64,000 bases of DNA from Hyphomicrobiales bacterium (GTDB taxonomy: Bacteria > Pseudomonadota > Alphaproteobacteria > Rhizobiales > Rhizobiaceae): NCBI GenBank assembly GCA_900466875.1, contig UBNQ01000009.1, positions 1 through 64,000 on the forward strand. Direction: 5' to 3'. Below the pieces are notes generated by a model. That model did not search any database. It saw nothing but the letters and a program-made list of their open reading frames with translations, and was not told the DNA's origin. The position numbers were made by a program, and so were the translations under genes. Of this stretch, positions 7,376 to 16,053 are shown in pieces. Position 1 is the first letter of the stretch. Each line of letters begins with the position of its first letter.

Positions 7376-7462
7376 GCCCAGATGGCGGAATTGGTAGACG
7401 CGCCAGCTTCAGGTGCTGGTACCCGAAAGGGTGTGGAGGTTCGAGTCCTCTTCTGGGCACCA
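7376..7462 (+). tRNA. tRNA-Leu (CAG)
   Basis: The cloverleaf is readable: acceptor arms GCCCAGA/TCTGGGC, a long variable arm as expected for Leu, anticodon CAG in the loop TTCAGGT, T arm GGTTCGAGTCC and an encoded CCA end. The 3' end is the integration target of the element that follows and is kept intact by it. Confidence 0.97.
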
Positions 7463-7475
7463 TTCCCATTGTTTA
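7447..7475 (+). repeat. left attachment site (attL), 29-bp direct repeat
   Basis: The 3' end of tRNA-Leu plus 13 bases downstream is repeated exactly at 15393-15421. Identity stops abruptly on both sides, as expected for a site-specific recombination core. Confidence 0.93.
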
Positions 7476-7516
7476 AAGTTGAACATTTTCAATGTTCTCA
7501 GGATGTTAGCCTTCCC

Positions 7517-7549
7517 ACCGGTACACAAACCGGTACAAGGGAAGGTACA
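7517..7549 (+). promoter_or_regulatory. 12-bp-period direct repeats before the integrase
   Basis: ACCGGTACA occurs at 7517 and 7529, and a weaker copy (GAAGGTACA) at 7541, exactly 12 bases apart, ending against the integrase start codon. The last copy overlaps the ribosome-binding GGAAGG. Such spacing puts copies on nearly the same DNA face and fits arm-type integrase binding sites or a repressor operator. Confidence 0.45.
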
Positions 7550-7551
7550 TT

Positions 7552-8964
7552 ATGGGGCTTGTGTTGAAGTACGTCCAAGAGCCATCGGCGAGCCGAAGGC
7601 AGTACCGATATCGGCGCAGAGTTCCCGACGATCTCCAGTCCATAGCAGGCAAGAAAGAGCTGATCGCCACCCTCGGTGACAGCCCAAAAGAGGCCCTCAA
7701 AGCCTACCCTAGCATCCATGCAGGATTTGAGGAGGAGCTTGCCCTTGCGCGCAAGACATTGGCCGCTGAAAGAGCCAAGCGCCCCTTCGCCGAACTCTCC
7801 GATCGCGAGCGTTATGACATGCTCCTCAGCCGACTGAGGGAGTTGGGGGTTGACGATCCAGAAGCGGTTGCCAGCGATGACGATCAGTCTTTCCAGCGCG
7901 AGATGATCGCCGAAGGCATTGCCGCGCGATACCCACATAACGACGAGACGGGAAACCCGATCATCACCGACAAGGCGGATGCGTTCCTCATTCAGTCGCT
8001 CATGTCGAAGGCACCGCCAAAGCCGTCCCCATCGCTGGACGATGCGGTCAAGCTCTACCTGAAGGATAAAGTGGCTGGCAGCGCGTTTGACGTGAAGAAG
8101 AACACGCAGCGCGTTGAGCGCGTCATCTCGCGGCTGAAGCGGGCGCTGGGCAAGACCCCGCAAGTCGATAAAATCACACGTGACGATGCCCGCAAGGTCA
8201 GAGATCACCTGCTCGGTCTTGGCAGCTTGACACCAGCGTCGGTGCGCCGAGAGCTGAACATCGTCAAAGCAATCATCAACCATGCGATCACCGAGTTCGA
8301 GCTGGGCGGCTGCAACAATCCGTTCCGGAAGCTGGACATCGCGGGTCTCGACGAAGAGAACGAGGCCGACAAGCGCCATCCGTTCCCTGCAGATATGCTT
8401 ATCGAGGTCAGGAACCATATCCTCTCAACCGTAAACCCCGAACTCCAACTCATCTGGCGCTTGCTGGAAGGAACGGGCTGCCGAATGGCCGAGGTCTCCG
8501 GCCTGCGGGTGGATGACGTGACAATCATCGGCGATACGCCAAACATCCGGGTCACGTGGCATGAGGATCGACGCATCAAGACGAAGACATCGAAGCGTCA
8601 CGTCCCTCTAGTCGGCGATGCCCTAGCAGCAGCGGTTGAGGCCTTGGCTGCGGCTGATGCGGGCCCAATGGTATTCAGCCGTTACAGTGACGAGAACGGC
8701 CCCACTAACGTCTCCAAGGCGCTCATGGACCGTGTGAGGGAGATCACCGATAACTCGCGGCTGGTTGTTCACTCGCTACGCCACAACATTAAGGACAGGC
8801 TGCTGCTGGCAGGGGTCGCGGAACTGGACCAGAATATCATCCTCGGGCACTCGCTCGGCGGGGTCGGCAACCGGACCTATGGCGGCGAACAGGCAAAGCT
8901 GGTGGTGACGACGGCGGCGATGAAAAAGGCGTTTGGACTAGCTGAAGAACGCGACGCTAACTGA
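7552..8964 (+). CDS. tyrosine-type site-specific integrase
   Basis: A 470-aa phage-type integrase that inserts and excises the surrounding element at tRNA-Leu. The N-terminal part (about 1-40) resembles the short basic region found in rhizobial/phage integrases of this size. A SAM-like core-binding domain lies at about 160-270. The C-terminal catalytic domain shows the expected residues: Arg311 (GTGCRMAE), a Lys near 345-348 in the beta hairpin, His407-x-x-Arg410 (HSLRHN), His433 (LGHSLGG) and the nucleophile Tyr443 (NRTYGG). The start codon is preceded by AAGGGAAGG at good spacing and by three period-12 repeats. The gene lies 90 bases inside the attL repeat, as is typical. It appears intact, so the element may still excise. 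Confidence 0.96.
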   Translation: MGLVLKYVQEPSASRRQYRYRRRVPDDLQSIAGKKELIATLGDSPKEALKAYPSIHAGFEEELALARKTLAAERAKRPFAELSDRERYDMLLSRLRELGVDDPEAVASDDDQSFQREMIAEGIAARYPHNDETGNPIITDKADAFLIQSLMSKAPPKPSPSLDDAVKLYLKDKVAGSAFDVKKNTQRVERVISRLKRALGKTPQVDKITRDDARKVRDHLLGLGSLTPASVRRELNIVKAIINHAITEFELGGCNNPFRKLDIAGLDEENEADKRHPFPADMLIEVRNHILSTVNPELQLIWRLLEGTGCRMAEVSGLRVDDVTIIGDTPNIRVTWHEDRRIKTKTSKRHVPLVGDALAAAVEALAAADAGPMVFSRYSDENGPTNVSKALMDRVREITDNSRLVVHSLRHNIKDRLLLAGVAELDQNIILGHSLGGVGNRTYGGEQAKLVVTTAAMKKAFGLAEERDAN

Positions 8965-9090
8965 CGCTTAGAACTCAAGACAGCTTACAACCGGCCTGAA
9001 GTCGCCCCTGTTGGTGCCGTGTAGCCGGACACCGAGTCACGCTGGCATTTTTTCCCGAAGCACCCCATAGTCGTTGCGGGGGACTTCTAT

Positions 9091-12000
9091 ATGAACAGAC
9101 TGACAAAGCTTGAAATTCAGAGTGCGTTGCTGGCTGGACGAGCGCTGGTCTGGACCAATGCAGCTGGGAAACGTGAGACGATCGAGCTGAAGAGCCCGAT
9201 ACAGCGACGCCTTCTTGCCTACATACTTCATTCCGCAGTTCGAGAACCAAAGGGGTTGCCCGAGGTTTTTGTCGCAGGCCTATCCTCGACCTACGCGAGT
9301 AGTGGCGATCCAGCTAACAACGCTGGCGGCTCCTCATCAGTCATGCCATCCGGGCCTTGGAGGCTGCAGAGAATGGAGACGGAAGGTTTCGGGGGCCTCA
9401 ACATCTCTGGAGGCCCCAAATTCTCGTATGACTTTGATGGCAGCAGCCTGTTGCTTCAAGGGCCTAACGGTAGCGGCAAGTCGTCCATCGTTGGCGCAGT
9501 GCTTTGGGCCATGACAGGAGAACGTCCTCGTGACCAAGCCACTTCACGCCTTGAAGAACCAGCCGAGGTATTTGACATTGAAAACCGTACTATAGGCAGC
9601 TGGCCTCCCATCGCCTGCTACCCTGATCGGCGAGCCGGGCTTTCGACTGCACCCAAGGTGCGCGTCACGCTGACTTTCGTCGACGCCCACGGGACACTGG
9701 CTCAGGTGGAGCGACGCCTAGAAGACGGACAGGTTCAAAGCTCTAGAGACCCTTCCCTCGCCATCCCAGACGTTTTGATCGAAACCGGCCTGCTGATGCC
9801 TTCCCGAATGGCCCAAATCCGTTTTGAAAAGGGCCAGACTCCGCTAACTCAAGCTGTGCAGTCCCTTACTGGTCTTGATGACCTTGTCGATGTCGGGCTT
9901 CTAGCAGAAGGTCTCTGTCACAAGGGCCGTGAATACCTTTCCGTTAACGAGAAGCAGCTTCAACAACATAAGGCGTTATTTGTAGCCGCGCTCAACGAGG
10001 CCGAGCGTGCCATCAAGCCGACAGGCGAAACCATCGGTGCCTTTCAACCAAAGGACACCGATGCGGCAGACGGGCCGTTTGCCGAGTTAGGCAAGACGCT
10101 ACGCGCGCGTGCCGCTGAGTTAACGCAGGTTGTCGGTGATGATCTTGTCGCTGGCCTCGATCTAACCAACGCCAAAGTACAGCTCGACGTTGCCGGAGCG
10201 ATCACGATGGCGAAGGACAGCGTCACAGCTGGCCTCGACGACTTGCCGACCTGGAAGACACTTTCAACATTTGACACGGCGTTCACGGGAGACGTTAGAC
10301 AGCAGCTCAATGCGGCAGTGTGTAACGCTGAAGCCGCTCTTGAGGAGGCAATCGCTCTTGATCAGCGGGCTCAACGCGACACGCGTTTACAGCTCAAGGC
10401 GTTGGGCGCCCATTGGCATGAGACACATGCCACCTCCGCTGAGCTGACGAATTGCCCGCTTTGCGAGAAACTAATTGATGACCTGTCGCTTAAGGCGGAA
10501 ATGGAAGCGTTACGTCGAGCCGGTAGTGCAGCGAGACGCCAATTTGTCGACAACCTGAATGCCATAAGAGCGGCGCTCATCACAGCAGTGCCCTCCACTG
10601 TCACACCCAGACTCACCGCTCTTGCGACCCTCACGCCCCGCCAGTCATTGATTGACGAACTTGAGGCCCGTCTGGTGAAAAAAGCTGTCATCAAGAACGC
10701 TCTAGGAACTTTCACTACGCTGGTCACGGAAGCTATTGCGATGGCACCGAAGGCTGAGTTGCCGTTACCAGATCGAACAACATCGACTGTAGAGCAAACC
10801 GGAGAGCTGCGAGAGCTGATCGCCTCGGTGCGTCGATTACTAGCTTTGGATCAATGGCACGGCGAAAATGCATCAGCGTGGCGAGAATGGTGGAGGCAGA
10901 CGGCATTCACTGTGTCAGAGGGGCCACTTGGAGGCGACGTTGAAGATCGGGACCGTCCGAAACAAGAAACGCTGTCCCAACATCTAAGCCGCCTCTCAGC
11001 CGCGATCAGCGAGGCTGCACCCTATCGTGCTGCGGCAGACGCTCTTGGTAGAGCTTGGAGAAGCGGCCGGGATGCGAGCCACTTTCAGAAAATTCAGGAT
11101 GAACGTGAGGCCATCGCTAGCCATCTTGCTCCATTAAAATCGCTTGGCGGACTGGCCGAAACTCAGGCACGGTTAGCGATCGATAGCTTATCTGAAGAGA
11201 TCGGAACCATACTGCAGCGCATGCACCTATCCGCCAGACTCGCCTTCAAAGGAGCAAGCTTACGGCGACGGGTAGGGCTGCAGGTTCACGGTGGCTTTGC
11301 CAATGACTTCAAGATCGACGCCACTCTTGTGGCTAACACGTCATGGCTCCGAGCGGTGCTATGGGCATTCCTTTTTGCGCTGCGCAAGGAGGCTGTGAAG
11401 CAGCTTGGCAGCGACCCCCTTCCCCTTCTCGTCTTCGATGACCCTCAAGCAACCTTTGACTCTGAACATCGACGACGGTGGGGGATGGAAATAGCTGCAC
11501 TTCAGCAGCATACGATACCGGCGCAGGTTTTGCTTGCGACCCACGATGAGATTTTTCTCGAGTTGATAAAAAATCTTGATGGAATAGCAGGACGAGAAGC
11601 TATCATTGTCTCGGCCGGACCTGAGCTTGGACATATCGGGCTATTTGAGGGCGCCGCGCTCGAACGTGGATGGGTCAAGACAAAGGCGGACAACACCCCA
11701 AGCGCAGCGCAGGATTACATTAGCAGCGTGCGGGTTTACATCGAAGGTCTGCTGCGGCTTATGCTTCGAGGCGAAAGTGCAGGCGTGGCTTCGAGTATCA
11801 ACGGCTTCACGATAGGAGATTCTCGAACGAAAATTCGCGAACTGCGCACGAAGATGCTTGCGCCTTGGGATAAATCAGAATTCAACACTCTCCTCGCTCC
11901 GCTTGACAGCGGTATAGGAGCCATCAAGTCGCTGGAGATGTCGCACCACTCGGGCCGCAGCCACCTCACCATGGCTGATGCCATCGACGTTGAAAATCAT

Positions 12001-12930
12001 TGGAGAGTGAAACTTGAGCCCGCGCTGAGGCGCGCTTTCAGTCTTGCACGTGATTATTTCCAGCTCCACGGTGGCTTGCACCCGCTCCGCGCTTCGGAAC
12101 CAGAGTGCGCGCTCCCTGAAGGGTATCAAGAAAAGGTCAAGAGCTTTCGTTTTCGAATGCTTGGTCGCGCTGCAGCGCTGACTGGCGGTCTAGTGGCGGA
12201 CGGACGCGTAGACCTGAACTTTACAGATACGAGCTCCGGCCAGTTGGTTCTTGGGCGCCACTTTGCCTTCCGCCTTGGCGCGCCAACACTCGAACCCGTC
12301 GCCCGAAAAGGCGATATATTATTGGTACGCGAGATCGGCGAACCTACACCTAAGTCACTTGTTGTTGCTCGTAGCGAAGATCGAGTAGTAGCCCGTCGCT
12401 TCGAGATCGCTGACAACCATAGCAACATTGCCGTTCTTACGGCTCATTCAGTTAATCCCAGACAGATAGCTCAACCAATTGTTGTCACAAAATCAACTCT
12501 TCACCTACACAAGGTCGTCGGAGTGTTATTTGAAGATCAACCTAGCGTCAGCGACGTTGAGGAAGAGGTTTTAGATTGTGGGGGCGAAGCGGTCCTTCGC
12601 CGCTATACGACAAACGTCAAGGGCTTGGTCGAGGTCTCGGGCCAGAGCGCTGAGCCCATTGCGCTGAACGGGCAGATGCTCATGATTGGAGAGCCTTTAT
12701 CCCCGGACGATGCACTTGCTCGATTCGATGGCCGCCCTGTTATAGCCGGTGACGGAGACGAAAATCGCTACTTTAAGCGGCTGCGGCGCGGCACTGCGAG
12801 CACCGTTGTGCTCGAAAGCCTAGAGATCAGTGGGGACTTCCCACCGGTAGTTCTCACGCACCAGACGGGCCGCACCACCGATCTCAAGGAAGTTTGGCCC
12901 GTGCATGGCATACTCTTCGAGCGCCCCTAA
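9091..12930 (+). CDS. Rad50/SbcC-like ABC ATPase fused to two tandem LexA/UmuD (S24)-like domains
   Basis: 1279 aa. Residues 1-110 are an unrecognised N-terminal region. The ABC ATPase then shows Walker A GPNGSGKS (124-131), long helical arms with a central CPLC (455-458) that resembles the Rad50 zinc hook, a weak signature (NTSWLRAVLWAF, Ser751), Walker B LLVFDDPQATFD (779-790) and an H-loop LLATHDE (814-820). A helical region follows (about 860-1030). From about 1040 the sequence reads like the S24 peptidase fold twice. Copy 1 (about 1045-1147) has KGDILLV, VVARSEDRVVARRF and HKVVGVLFE, but Thr1066 and Arg1102 sit at the Ser/Lys dyad positions. Copy 2 (about 1165-1279) has SGQSAEPIAL with Ser1186, YFKRLRR with Lys1229 and WPVHGILFE; the 43-residue spacing equals that in lambda CI. 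ATP-dependent DNA sensing coupled to autoproteolysis is inferred, not shown. I know no characterised protein with this architecture. Confidence 0.85.
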   Translation: MNRLTKLEIQSALLAGRALVWTNAAGKRETIELKSPIQRRLLAYILHSAVREPKGLPEVFVAGLSSTYASSGDPANNAGGSSSVMPSGPWRLQRMETEGFGGLNISGGPKFSYDFDGSSLLLQGPNGSGKSSIVGAVLWAMTGERPRDQATSRLEEPAEVFDIENRTIGSWPPIACYPDRRAGLSTAPKVRVTLTFVDAHGTLAQVERRLEDGQVQSSRDPSLAIPDVLIETGLLMPSRMAQIRFEKGQTPLTQAVQSLTGLDDLVDVGLLAEGLCHKGREYLSVNEKQLQQHKALFVAALNEAERAIKPTGETIGAFQPKDTDAADGPFAELGKTLRARAAELTQVVGDDLVAGLDLTNAKVQLDVAGAITMAKDSVTAGLDDLPTWKTLSTFDTAFTGDVRQQLNAAVCNAEAALEEAIALDQRAQRDTRLQLKALGAHWHETHATSAELTNCPLCEKLIDDLSLKAEMEALRRAGSAARRQFVDNLNAIRAALITAVPSTVTPRLTALATLTPRQSLIDELEARLVKKAVIKNALGTFTTLVTEAIAMAPKAELPLPDRTTSTVEQTGELRELIASVRRLLALDQWHGENASAWREWWRQTAFTVSEGPLGGDVEDRDRPKQETLSQHLSRLSAAISEAAPYRAAADALGRAWRSGRDASHFQKIQDEREAIASHLAPLKSLGGLAETQARLAIDSLSEEIGTILQRMHLSARLAFKGASLRRRVGLQVHGGFANDFKIDATLVANTSWLRAVLWAFLFALRKEAVKQLGSDPLPLLVFDDPQATFDSEHRRRWGMEIAALQQHTIPAQVLLATHDEIFLELIKNLDGIAGREAIIVSAGPELGHIGLFEGAALERGWVKTKADNTPSAAQDYISSVRVYIEGLLRLMLRGESAGVASSINGFTIGDSRTKIRELRTKMLAPWDKSEFNTLLAPLDSGIGAIKSLEMSHHSGRSHLTMADAIDVENHWRVKLEPALRRAFSLARDYFQLHGGLHPLRASEPECALPEGYQEKVKSFRFRMLGRAAALTGGLVADGRVDLNFTDTSSGQLVLGRHFAFRLGAPTLEPVARKGDILLVREIGEPTPKSLVVARSEDRVVARRFEIADNHSNIAVLTAHSVNPRQIAQPIVVTKSTLHLHKVVGVLFEDQPSVSDVEEEVLDCGGEAVLRRYTTNVKGLVEVSGQSAEPIALNGQMLMIGEPLSPDDALARFDGRPVIAGDGDENRYFKRLRRGTASTVVLESLEISGDFPPVVLTHQTGRTTDLKEVWPVHGILFERP

Positions 12931-13128
12931 TCGCAGATCGATTACCCCTCACATATAGAAGAAGGAGGCTGCGGCGATTGCCACACCCTTTAGGATAGAG
13001 CCGCTCTGACGGGCGTCTCGGCCCTTCCTCGTGCCGTGTCGATCGCCACGCACACCACCTAGAACCACGCGCTCACGCGACCCGATAGCCGGGAGTTGGT
13101 TCAACCGCTCACGTTCGTCTCAGCCTCA

Positions 13129-13163
13129 ACCCCGATGATCAGATCGATTGCCGGGGTCTTTTT
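13129..13163 (+). terminator. possible weak terminator between ATPase and ParB-like genes
   Basis: Six-base arms ACCCCG/CGGGGT with a 17-base loop containing a GATC-rich inverted repeat, followed by CTTTTT. The stem is short for its loop, so a regulatory hairpin is equally possible. It is the only notable structure in 12931-13200. Confidence 0.3.
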
Positions 13164-13200
13164 CTGCCGTGCTGGTGACGGACGATCACAACAAGAACCT

Positions 13201-14154
13201 ATGACGAGAACGAAGATGAAAGAACCCAACAACACAACGCCCTCCTCACCGGCTCAGGAAGCCGACTGCAGCCTTCCGCATGATCTGAAGGCGCTGACGT
13301 TCAGCAGGGCGCTGGACGCTCTCAGGCAGGCCCAGAAAGCCACTACCAAGCTCGGTGACGAACCGAACCGTCTACCGATCTCACAGCTCGACGAGCTGCC
13401 GAAGGTGTTCCAGATCAGGAGCGCCGAAGTGGACGATCGGCATGTCAGCGATCTGCTCAAGGCCCTGAACATCCACGGCGCGCTCGATCCAATCATGGTC
13501 TGGCGATGCGGTGGCCGAAACTTCGTGGTGGATGGTCATCACCGGATTGCCGCCTATCGGCTCTGGCGGAAGTCCAAGGAGCTGCCTGTCGTCTTCTTCA
13601 AGGGCACCGTCGATGAGGCCATCGAACATGCCGAGGCCGTCAACGGTAAGGCGAGCCTTGGCATCACGTACGAGGAGCGATCGAACTATGCTTGGAAGCT
13701 GGTGGTCCATGCCGAGCTTCTTGGCAAGTTGTCCAAGGCGCAGCTCGTCAGGCGAGCCAACATCGCCAAGGGCACGATCGATAACATGCGAGCCGCCTTC
13801 GCAATCTTGGGCGAGCGAGCCGTTAGCCTGCCGAGTTGGCGAGATGCGATGACGGAGTGGAAGAGGGGCCTGCAGGATGGAGATCAGGAATTCGATGAAA
13901 GCTGGCAGGAGGCGGAAGCCATGAAGATCGTCGATCGGCTGGGCAAGGAGTTCGGCAAGCGCCTTGCCAAGAGGCCGGAGATCGCGGCCAAAGCCTTTAG
14001 CCATCTCCTCGGCAGGAAATCCCGAGATGTCGCGGTTTTGATGCTGGAGGAGGAGGGCCTCACACCCATACTGCGCGATGAAGATGGCAATGAGATCGAT
14101 GATCTGGATAGCTACGAGCGGCCCCTTCGCGAGCCGACAGAAATCCCGTTCTGA
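13201..14154 (+). CDS. ParB/Srx-like N-terminal domain protein
   Basis: A 317-aa protein with a ParB-type nuclease/CTPase-fold domain: the LDELPKVFQIR entry strand, LKALNIHGALDPIMVW, and the hallmark VDGHHRIAAYR in place of the usual GERR-type motif. A helix-turn-helix-like segment follows (LSKAQLVRRANIAKGTIDNM, about 200-220), then a basic helical tail. No ParA ATPase is encoded nearby, so classical partition is unlikely. Orphan ParB-like proteins in integrative elements are commonly DNA-binding regulators or stabilisers. The open frame extends back to 13096, but that part has no ribosome site; ATG 13201 (MTRTKMK) is used, with 13216 as an alternative. It ends 57 bases before a strong terminator. 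Confidence 0.8.
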   Translation: MTRTKMKEPNNTTPSSPAQEADCSLPHDLKALTFSRALDALRQAQKATTKLGDEPNRLPISQLDELPKVFQIRSAEVDDRHVSDLLKALNIHGALDPIMVWRCGGRNFVVDGHHRIAAYRLWRKSKELPVVFFKGTVDEAIEHAEAVNGKASLGITYEERSNYAWKLVVHAELLGKLSKAQLVRRANIAKGTIDNMRAAFAILGERAVSLPSWRDAMTEWKRGLQDGDQEFDESWQEAEAMKIVDRLGKEFGKRLAKRPEIAAKAFSHLLGRKSRDVAVLMLEEEGLTPILRDEDGNEIDDLDSYERPLREPTEIPF

Positions 14155-14210
14155 CCCCTTCCCTGCCCACTGCTCAGGTGCCCATTTTGGGCAGGTGACA
14201 GACACGATTG

Positions 14211-14266
14211 CGGCCTTGGCCCTTCTCTTCAATTGCGAGGGGCGGGCCGAGGTCGGGCATTTTTTT
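14211..14266 (+). terminator. terminator after the ParB-like gene
   Basis: A 12-base stem, CGGCCTTGGCCC with GGGCCGAGGTCG (two G-T pairs), a 21-base loop and a run of seven T. It separates the first three island genes from the resolvase unit. A second small hairpin (TGCCCA-TTT-TGGGCA) lies just upstream at about 14179-14193. Confidence 0.7.
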
Positions 14267-14411
14267 GGCGGAAAATTCCGAGAGGCCAATCAGATATAAG
14301 GCTAGGGCCGGTTCCCCCCGTGCCCCGGCTTACCCCTGCACTCGGGAGCCATCGTGACCGCCCCCAACCATGCTTGTCGAATTGAGTAAGCCGCTGTCTG
14401 CGATGTCAGCA

Positions 14412-14524
14412 TGTCCGATAGGGCATACCATAGCGGACAAGACACCAAATACTCTCATCGTGTCCGATAGGGTTGACATCGTTCTTTCGTACACATATCC
14501 ATTCGGACATAATCCTATCGGACA
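14412..14524 (+). other. three-subsite res site for the serine resolvase
   Basis: A TGTCCGATAGGG-like half-site recurs in a layout matching Tn3/gamma-delta res. Site I (14412-14439, 28 bp) has inverted arms TGTCCGATAGGG and CCATAGCGGACA around CATA, with AT at the crossover centre. After 21 bp comes site II (14461-14494, 34 bp), starting TGTCCGATAGGG with a weaker right arm TTTCGTACA. After 5 bp comes site III (14500-14524, 25 bp), ending CCTATCGGACA. The 28/34/25 lengths and 113-bp total are those of the family (about 114 bp). Confidence 0.75.
14473..14501 (+). promoter_or_regulatory. resolvase promoter embedded in the res site
   Basis: TTGACA (14473-14478), a 17-base spacer and TATCCA (14496-14501) form a sigma70-type promoter within subsites II and III, so resolvase binding would repress its own gene, as for tnpR of Tn3-type elements. 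Confidence 0.55.
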
Positions 14525-14537
14525 ATCGGAGCAACCC

Positions 14538-15173
14538 TTGGCAACCTTCCTATACGCTCGCGTCTCTACCTCTGAGCAGACCCTCGACCACCAGAAGACC
14601 CAGGCCGAGAAGGCTGGCTTTCACTTCGACCACGTCATCGCTGATCAGGGTGTATCAGGTGTGTCGGTCTTGATGAGGGACCGCCCGGAAGGCAAGCGCC
14701 TCTTTGACATGCTGCGAGCTGGCGACACGCTGGTCGTTCGGTGGGTCGATCGCCTTGGCCGAAACTATGCGGACGTGACCGACACCATTCGAGAGTTCAT
14801 GAGACGCGGCGTTGTGGTCAAGACGGTGATCAACAACATGACTTTCGATGGCTCGACATCTGACCCCATGCAGATGGCGGTGAGAGATGCGATGATCAGC
14901 TTCATGGCCGCATCCGCGCAGGCGCAGGTCGAAGCCACGAAGGAAGCCCAGAAGGCTGCTATCGAGGCCCTGAAGGCGAAAGACGACGGCGCGTATAAGG
15001 GCCGCAAGCCCAGCTTCACGCGAGCCGCATACGAGACGGTGGTCAACCTGCTTGGCAAGAACGCAAGCGTGTCAGAGATCGCCCAGGCATCAGGCATCAG
15101 CCGTCAGACGGTCTACAGGATCAAGGAGAACCCAGCGGCAGCGGAGAAGGCATTGGCACTGTGGTCGCTATAA
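14538..15173 (+). CDS. serine recombinase (resolvase/invertase family)
   Basis: A 211-aa resolvase. The catalytic domain begins with LYARVSTSEQTLDHQ, whose Ser in RVST is the nucleophile, followed by the GVSG and VRWVDRLGRN motifs that carry the conserved active-site Asp/Arg residues. The E-helix region is at about 100-135. A C-terminal helix-turn-helix (SVSEIAQASGISRQTVYRIK) binds DNA. The open frame reaches back to 14370 but runs through the res site. A TTG at 14538 preceded by CGGAG at the right distance starts exactly at the family N-terminus and is chosen. Together with its res site it probably resolves dimers or cointegrates of the excised element. No transposase is present, so a Tn3 transposon is not supported. 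Confidence 0.93.
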   Translation: MATFLYARVSTSEQTLDHQKTQAEKAGFHFDHVIADQGVSGVSVLMRDRPEGKRLFDMLRAGDTLVVRWVDRLGRNYADVTDTIREFMRRGVVVKTVINNMTFDGSTSDPMQMAVRDAMISFMAASAQAQVEATKEAQKAAIEALKAKDDGAYKGRKPSFTRAAYETVVNLLGKNASVSEIAQASGISRQTVYRIKENPAAAEKALALWSL

Positions 15174-15392
15174 CGATCTGGCTGAATTTCTGATCGTCGG
15201 TTTGCCTTACCCCGATAATGTCTTTTCGGCCTGCCTGTGGCCAGCCCTCAGCGGCCCCAAGATTTCCGGTACACAGAACCGCCACCGCGTGGTACACACG
15301 CCCCACAGTGCCGGTGAGGAAGCCATCTCGCAAGGCATTGAAAACGTGACGCTTTAAGACACAGAGATGATGCCCTCGGCAAGCTCGGCTCG

Positions 15393-15421
15393 CCTCTTCT
15401 GGGCACCATTCCCATTGTTTA
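15393..15421 (+). repeat. right attachment site (attR), 29-bp direct repeat
   Basis: Exact copy of 7447-7475 (the tRNA-Leu 3' end and flank). It marks the far end of the island. The 220 bases before it (15174-15392) hold no gene I can support. Confidence 0.93.
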
Positions 15422-15951: not shown

Positions 15952-16053
15952 AGAGCGCTTCCGCCTTTCTCCGAAACGCGAAACCGCTCCATCTCTTTGT
16001 TTCTACGCAATTCCGGACGCAAAACCGGTGTCCACTTTTGCTGGAATTGCTCC
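15952..16053. repeat. RIME-like rhizobial intergenic mosaic element
   Basis: Two neighbouring imperfect palindromes: one bounded by AGAGCG/CGCTC (about 15953-15990), the other by GCAATTCC/GGAATTGC (about 16006-16051) with a GGAC..CCGGTGTCC core. This is the familiar two-palindrome repeat scattered between genes in Rhizobium and relatives. It would form strong hairpins in RNA on either strand. Confidence 0.7.

Follow-up and report, generated by a model that had tools for sequence, protein, structure and literature searches.

The question raised by this locus is what a single bacterial protein might do that joins a Rad50-like ATPase at one end to two LexA-type domains at the other. The gene concerned lies at 9091..12930 of the window, i.e. 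the 64,000-nucleotide stretch analysed here (positions 1 to 64,000 of contig UBNQ01000009.1, assembly GCA_900466875.1, a Hyphomicrobiales bacterium), and encodes 1279 amino acids (aa) from an ATG start without internal stops. All coordinates below are those of the window, and all genes and protein features are on its forward strand. An earlier note on this DNA had described one gene combining an ABC ATPase, a CPLC hook-like motif and two C-terminal S24-like domains, and this description is upheld by Pfam, by AlphaFold2 modelling and by conservation across 220 aligned sequences. Its proposal of DNA-end sensing wired to a LexA-type switch is still a plausible logic for a hooked head with two LexA folds, but it had overlooked a HEPN-like domain at about residues 841-992; likewise, both S24 domains are predicted to have the LexA fold, but it had gone unnoticed that they are unequal, the first being dead and the second having an intact dyad. 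We consider it evenly balanced whether the protein is a DNA-end-triggered ribonuclease (RNase) with an RloC-type triad, restrained by a self-cutting tail of one dead and one live LexA-type domain.

One gene with a recurring domain order

A homologue search with the 1279-aa protein against 5.8 billion proteins returned 211 relatives; among the best 120 of the 211, 116 cover at least 93% of the query, at 45-93% identity. A second search, started from a plasmid relative (L004), returned 145, of which the best 120 were used. From the 240 matches listed, the 216 homologues longer than 1,220 aa were aligned with the query and three plasmid proteins, the 24 of at most 1,220 aa being left out. The resulting 220 rows, to which the conservation counts below refer, comprise groups A (115, including the query), B (70) and C (32) and three others; these are search groups, not tree-based clades, with identities to the query over aligned residues of 45-72%, 21-24% and 20-22%, respectively. 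A separate alignment of the closest group holds 115 sequences, 6 of 120 homologues having been left out.

The same single-chain order recurs throughout the 220 sequences: an N-terminal domain, an ABC ATPase of Rad50/RecF type into which a CPxC hook is inserted, a HEPN-like domain and two LexA/S24 domains. All checked motifs of the ATPase, hook, HEPN-like and S24 domains are present in that order in 216 of the 220 rows. Together with the coverage of the best relatives, this excludes a misjoin of ATPase and tail, for which the earlier note had allowed, and the open reading frame (ORF) is one intact gene. The Phyllobacterium copy (L003:9995-15087) is in two parts with a transposase-like ORF in between, and the copies in L013, L020 and L021 are broken into several ORFs, which may reflect decay or errors in metagenome-assembled genomes (MAGs).

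Database names of family members are generic or conflicting: 'AAA family ATPase', 'ATP-binding protein', 'energy-coupling factor transporter ATP-binding protein EcfA2' and 'SOS-response transcriptional repressor LexA'. On the 1279-aa protein, Pfam reports AAA_23 at residues 111-211 (34.4 bits, cut-off 27), Peptidase_S24 at residues 1058-1113 (24.1 bits, cut-off 23.3) and SMC_N slightly below its cut-off (36.7 bits against 40). A sequence search of the PDB with the whole protein gave weak SMC heads only, with a best E value of 0.054.

A hooked ATPase head and a candidate RNase domain

Residues 1-88 (9091..9354, the 264 nucleotides ahead of 9355) form a separate domain in which R39 is at least 97% conserved; its boundary is marked by the PDB structural rows, a fifth or more of which span residues 88-858 only. 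The RloC-type proteins L059 and L061 begin near Walker A and have no space for such a domain. The ATPase follows at residues 89-858 (9355..11664) as a Rad50/SMC/RecF-type ABC head with a helical hook insertion. Its Walker A motif GPNGSGKSS (residues 124-132; 9460..9486) has K130 in all 220 rows, and its Walker B motif LLVFDDP (residues 779-785; 11425..11445) has D783 and D784 in all of them, in register with the FDDP of RloC-type proteins in a profile alignment. The degenerate motif ANTSW (residues 748-752; 11332..11346), which by its position in a protein of this family we take to be the ABC signature, has an invariant S751 (220/220). In the hook motif CPLC (residues 455-458; 10453..10464), C455 is found in 220 rows and C458 in 219, and both cysteines are present in all 115 sequences of the closest-group alignment. 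An AlphaFold2 model of residues 1-1010 (pLDDT 80, pTM 0.61) is matched by Foldseek to Rad50, SMC, MukB, Lamassu LmuACB and RecF chains. These data support a Rad50/SbcC/RecF-like ABC ATPase head with a zinc-hook motif.

Between the ATPase and the S24 tail lies the HEPN-like helical domain (about residues 841-992; 11611..12066), whose fold is predicted from models and profiles. It carries two parts that correspond in layout to the triad of the anticodon nucleases PrrC and RloC: R881-x3-E885 (11731..11745), with both residues in 220 of 220 rows, and H952-H953 (11944..11949), present in 219 and 220 rows, of which H953 is proposed to take the place of the catalytic His of RloC. Searches for a HEPN domain by sequence, with Pfam and against the PDB, gave rows at chance level only. 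The best profile match is to the L061-type PF13166 proteins (PADLOC PDC-S06), with an E value of 1e-10 over the ATPase C-lobe and the HEPN part; R, E and HH line up in it. Profiles connect the 1279-aa family with a PF13166 clade of ABC-hook-HEPN proteins, which in turn is connected with RloC-type proteins; a direct profile comparison of the HEPN part alone with RloC was not significant. Two of the 120 listed proteins (at most 700 aa) were left out of the RloC-type set. By these models and profiles, R881, E885 and H953 are the predicted equivalents of the RloC triad, and the HEPN-like domain with its invariant triad likely supplies the effector, a predicted nuclease.

The protein accordingly stands close to RloC, sharing a split Rad50-like ABC head with a CPxC hook (RloC is marked by a CXXC zinc hook inserted in its ABC ATPase), the DDP Walker B and a C-terminal helical domain with an R-x3-E ... 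H triad, and no fixed partner gene was found. RloC is sensor and effector in one: according to passages of PMC3874168, its nuclease is activated and sustained by linear DNA, and inducers of breaks activate it in cells. The differences are a domain of about 90 residues at the N-terminus, two LexA-type domains at the C-terminus, a length of 1279 aa against about 770 aa (L059), and a wider triad, the Glu-His spacing being 67 in the query and 63-71 in 219 of 220 rows as against 36-52 in the RloC motif Arg-X3-Glu-X36-52-His. Pfam gives no match of the query to PF13166 (AAA_13) at E up to 10; of seven relatives scanned, two gave E values of 0.22 and 0.46, and the other five none at E up to 1. Because PF13166 fails and the spacing exceeds the RloC range, we do not file the family as RloC. 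The L061-type PF13166 proteins differ likewise, as 8 aligned sequences of 752-778 aa end shortly past the HEPN motifs and leave no space for an S24 tail.

The two LexA-type domains as a candidate latch

The earlier note's assignment of an S24 fold to both C-terminal segments agrees with an AlphaFold2 model of residues 841-1279 (mean pLDDT 81, pTM 0.60), in which both are predicted to have LexA/UmuD'-like folds, and with profile alignments to LexA that each score above 60 of 60 column-shuffled controls. The first domain, S24-1 (residues 1020-1146; 12148..12528), is found by Pfam and by structural matching to LexA. The second, S24-2 (residues 1159-1279; 12565..12927), rests on the AlphaFold2 model, a structural match and hhalign; Pfam did not detect it in the query, and in the relative P0072 it reports two S24 stretches, the better of which (1181-1252) is at the place of the second domain. 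A PDB sequence search with the two domains alone returned only a spurious ribosomal S9 (E 0.54). The LexA profile was built from 9 rows, LexA from relatives, 15 of 24 LexA loci having been removed by a motif and length filter.

Against this profile, S24-2 aligns VEVSGQSAEP...YFKRLRR on LEVKGDSMIE...LKRFRR (E 4.8e-5, probability 68%). Since this sets S1186 (12646..12648) and K1229 (12775..12777) on the LexA Ser and Lys, we identify them as the predicted catalytic dyad of S24-2; they are conserved in 218 and 220 rows. S24-1 aligns RMLGRAAAL on PVMGRIAAG, the LexA cleavage loop, and T1066 on the Ser (E 4.5e-4, probability 33%). Its Ser position holds Thr in 185 rows, Gly in 23 and Ser in 12, and its Lys position holds Arg (R1102) in 219 of 220. 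The LexA-like loop LGRAAALTGG before it (residues 1024-1033; 12160..12189) has A1029 at the place of the P1 Ala in 220 of 220 rows, and no such loop was found ahead of S24-2. The dyad is therefore lost and the loop kept in the first domain and the dyad kept in the second, so that the first appears to be dead with a substrate-like loop and the second live.

The family thus shares with LexA, UmuD and lambda CI the fold, a Ser-Lys dyad (in S24-2; S24-1 lacks it) and a GR-x-AA-like loop before S24-1, and differs from them in a tandem pair that splits the roles. Whereas the scissile bond of LexA/S24 proteins is Ala-Gly or Cys-Gly, the residue following A1029 is Gly in none of the 220 rows. Structural comparison offers a further hint: in 11 of 50 rows a single LexA or CI domain corresponds to a composite stretch, which runs from model positions 173-181 (residues 1013-1021) to the end of S24-2. 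The start pairs of E. coli and P. aeruginosa LexA place A1029 on the P1 Ala, if the alignment is ungapped, which concerns end points only and not coordinates; one of four CI rows puts A1029 exactly at the cleavage position and the others at most 2 residues off. The rows matching S24-1 alone begin in different registers. As far as alignment end points can indicate, the composite matches fit a cut of the S24-1 loop by S24-2. The linker that joins the two S24 domains has a Cys-Gly-Gly-Glu-like motif at residues 1162-1166 (12574-12588), with Cys1163 in 112 of 115 group A sequences; as a cleavage site for S24-2, Cys1163-Gly was not kept, Cys not figuring among the most frequent residues in groups B and C.

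Since the head, hook and HEPN logic is that of RloC and a LexA-type tail is added, the S24 pair suggests itself as a latch. The head would sense DNA ends or damaged DNA, as in RloC, and once DNA, or possibly a RecA filament, is engaged, the loop of S24-1 would enter the active site of S24-2. S24-2 would then cut the loop near A1029, in cis or inside a hook-bridged dimer. Because the linker ahead of the loop (residues 995-1001) is of low confidence (pLDDT <50), a cut at 1029 would part the ATPase-HEPN portion from the S24 pair and might unleash the nuclease, which could cleave tRNA or other RNA, arrest the cell and abort an infection. We infer the trigger, the RNA target and the direction of the switch, taking the cut to turn the RNase on rather than off. 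The fuller proposal, a self-cleaving zymogen that unites Rad50-type sensing of DNA ends, RloC-like tRNA cleavage and a LexA latch split between two domains, the dead S24 presenting the A1029 loop and the live S24 cutting it, we put forward tentatively and at somewhat below an even chance. Mixed VIA registers and a mixed His register lower our confidence both in this proposal and in the main reading.

Loss of the dyad in S24-1 implies that S24 folds can persist for structure, and the pair might then be a structural or dimerisation module with no protease action, attached to a large RloC-like RNase that is gated by the ATPase and hook; RloC itself, as passages of PMC3874168 describe it, works without a protease. 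We nevertheless regard this as rather unlikely, for S1186 and K1229 are fixed across groups of 20-25% identity in which most of the domain varies, and the loop Ala1029 is invariant too. If the intact dyad of S24-2 is instead taken at face value, the live domain could be an effector protease acting on another protein of host or invader after the head has detected DNA, the HEPN part then being an inactive scaffold, and predicted protease subunits do occur as effectors in Lamassu systems, as stated in passages of PMC10586767. The HEPN triad, however, is conserved as strongly as the protease dyad, and the neighbouring S24-1 retains a LexA-like loop that points to self-cleavage, which makes such a protease improbable compared with a self-restrained RNase.

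Island, neighbourhoods and probable role

The 1279-aa gene forms the principal cargo of an integrase island of 7.9 kb, as the earlier note had recognised in calling the region mobile. The island (7447-15392; 7,946 bp) is flanked by 29-bp perfect repeats: attL (7447..7475), at the 3' end of the target tRNA-Leu (CAG; 7376..7462, by ARAGORN and Rfam), and its 100% identical copy attR (15393..15421). Four congener loci were examined: G398, G388 and G391 have an empty site, with an intact tRNA-Leu directly adjoining the right flank, and at G423 no tRNA was detected by ARAGORN. The other island genes encode a tyrosine integrase (7552..8964; DUF6538 and Phage_integrase by Pfam), a ParB_N-like/DUF6551-like protein (13096..14154; weak Pfam matches below cut-offs) and a serine resolvase with its domain from about residue 60 (14370..15173; Pfam Resolvase, 92 bits). 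The earlier note's view of the ATPase gene as the only non-housekeeping cargo is to be corrected in that the island also carries the ParB_N-like gene and the resolvase. Beyond attR, a sequence of about 100 bp (15952-16053) is a dispersed repeat with many copies in this genome and its congeners. The SOS-box pattern GAAC-N7-GAAC occurs exactly 6 times across the window, where 1.9 occurrences are expected, and the sole one near the gene lies within the ORF at 10695; a promoter scan of 8800-13300 gave no match, with 2.0 expected.

The gene is rare, occurring in 4 of 385 genomes of the class, its own included (E 1e-20), and relatives were found in 13 plasmid records, whereas phage records gave no match to the 1279-aa protein. 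Named genome contigs with relatives (15 loci, several partial) belong to Alphaproteobacteria, Deltaproteobacteria/Syntrophaceae, Granulicella, Burkholderiaceae and an Actinomycetota MAG. All-against-all BLASTP found no partner gene common to 25 loci, some of which are short contigs. Serine-recombinase-like genes occur near 5 of the 25 (L002, L009, L010, L016 and the window, 14370-15173), those of L002, L010 and L016 being large, upstream and on the opposite strand. Flanks include a type ISP restriction-modification gene (L016), a DNA methylase (L013) and a SIR2 gene (L012), L015 is flanked on both sides by PADLOC candidates (PDC-M01A and PDC-S73), and Shedu, DUF3320 and AbiEii genes lie beside plasmid copies. 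Among 20 hand-chosen flanking proteins from 12 loci, PADLOC matched 5, one of them an ordinary NtrC-type regulator. These hand-picked flanks, which are no measure of enrichment, lean towards defence, and we infer a defence role from some neighbourhoods and from kinship with RloC. A transcriptional regulator is unlikely, as a Pfam scan of the whole chain at E up to 10 detected no helix-turn-helix family, residues 1-88 having had no separate fold search; for the same reason we do not file the family as a LexA repressor.

With its Rad50-type head, the protein could also be a repair or checkpoint factor, SbcC-like and SOS-linked, and have no part in defence or toxicity. An SbcD-like exonuclease gene is found near the relative in 4 of 7 plasmid loci opened (L003, L004, L006, L007), and in L003 and L006 an ATPase gene directly adjoins it; these neighbours are possibly an accessory pair or plain defence-island clustering. 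Such a role is nonetheless distinctly improbable in view of the patchy spread of the gene, its carriage on islands and plasmids, the missing common partner and the absence of the SbcD-like cluster from the other 21 of 25 loci, short contigs among them; Pfam also found no Mre11/SbcD nuclease among the other three island genes. Very improbable, finally, is a Lamassu variant in one chain, whose LmuB part would sense and whose fused tail would be the effector: LmuB shares the hooked Rad50/SMC-like head, is the top PADLOC match (2.6e-12) and has LmuACB chains among the best Foldseek rows, but the match is not specific because the RloC-type L059 (1.8e-17) and L061 (6e-14) match LmuB models too, the four island genes, this one and the other three, give no LmuA or LmuC match in PADLOC at E up to 1, and the Walker B of this self-contained chain is DDP as in RloC-type proteins, whereas in LmuB the Glu is generally changed to Gln (passages of PMC10586767). 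Since LmuA is absent, we reject membership in Lamassu.

Among the titles and abstract openings searched, none describes S24 domains joined to an ATPase of the Rad50 or RloC type. LexA-type self-cleavage is known as a switch for transcription or for a polymerase, and RloC as a break-activated tRNase. If the zymogen proposal is true, DNA damage or the processing of phage DNA would irreversibly free a nuclease, and an SOS-type switch would lead to translation arrest without repressor or promoter. An irreversible, SOS-like proteolytic trigger would then sit directly on a toxic nuclease within one chain, and tandem S24 domains would divide the labour between them, with the substrate loop on one and the active site on the other.

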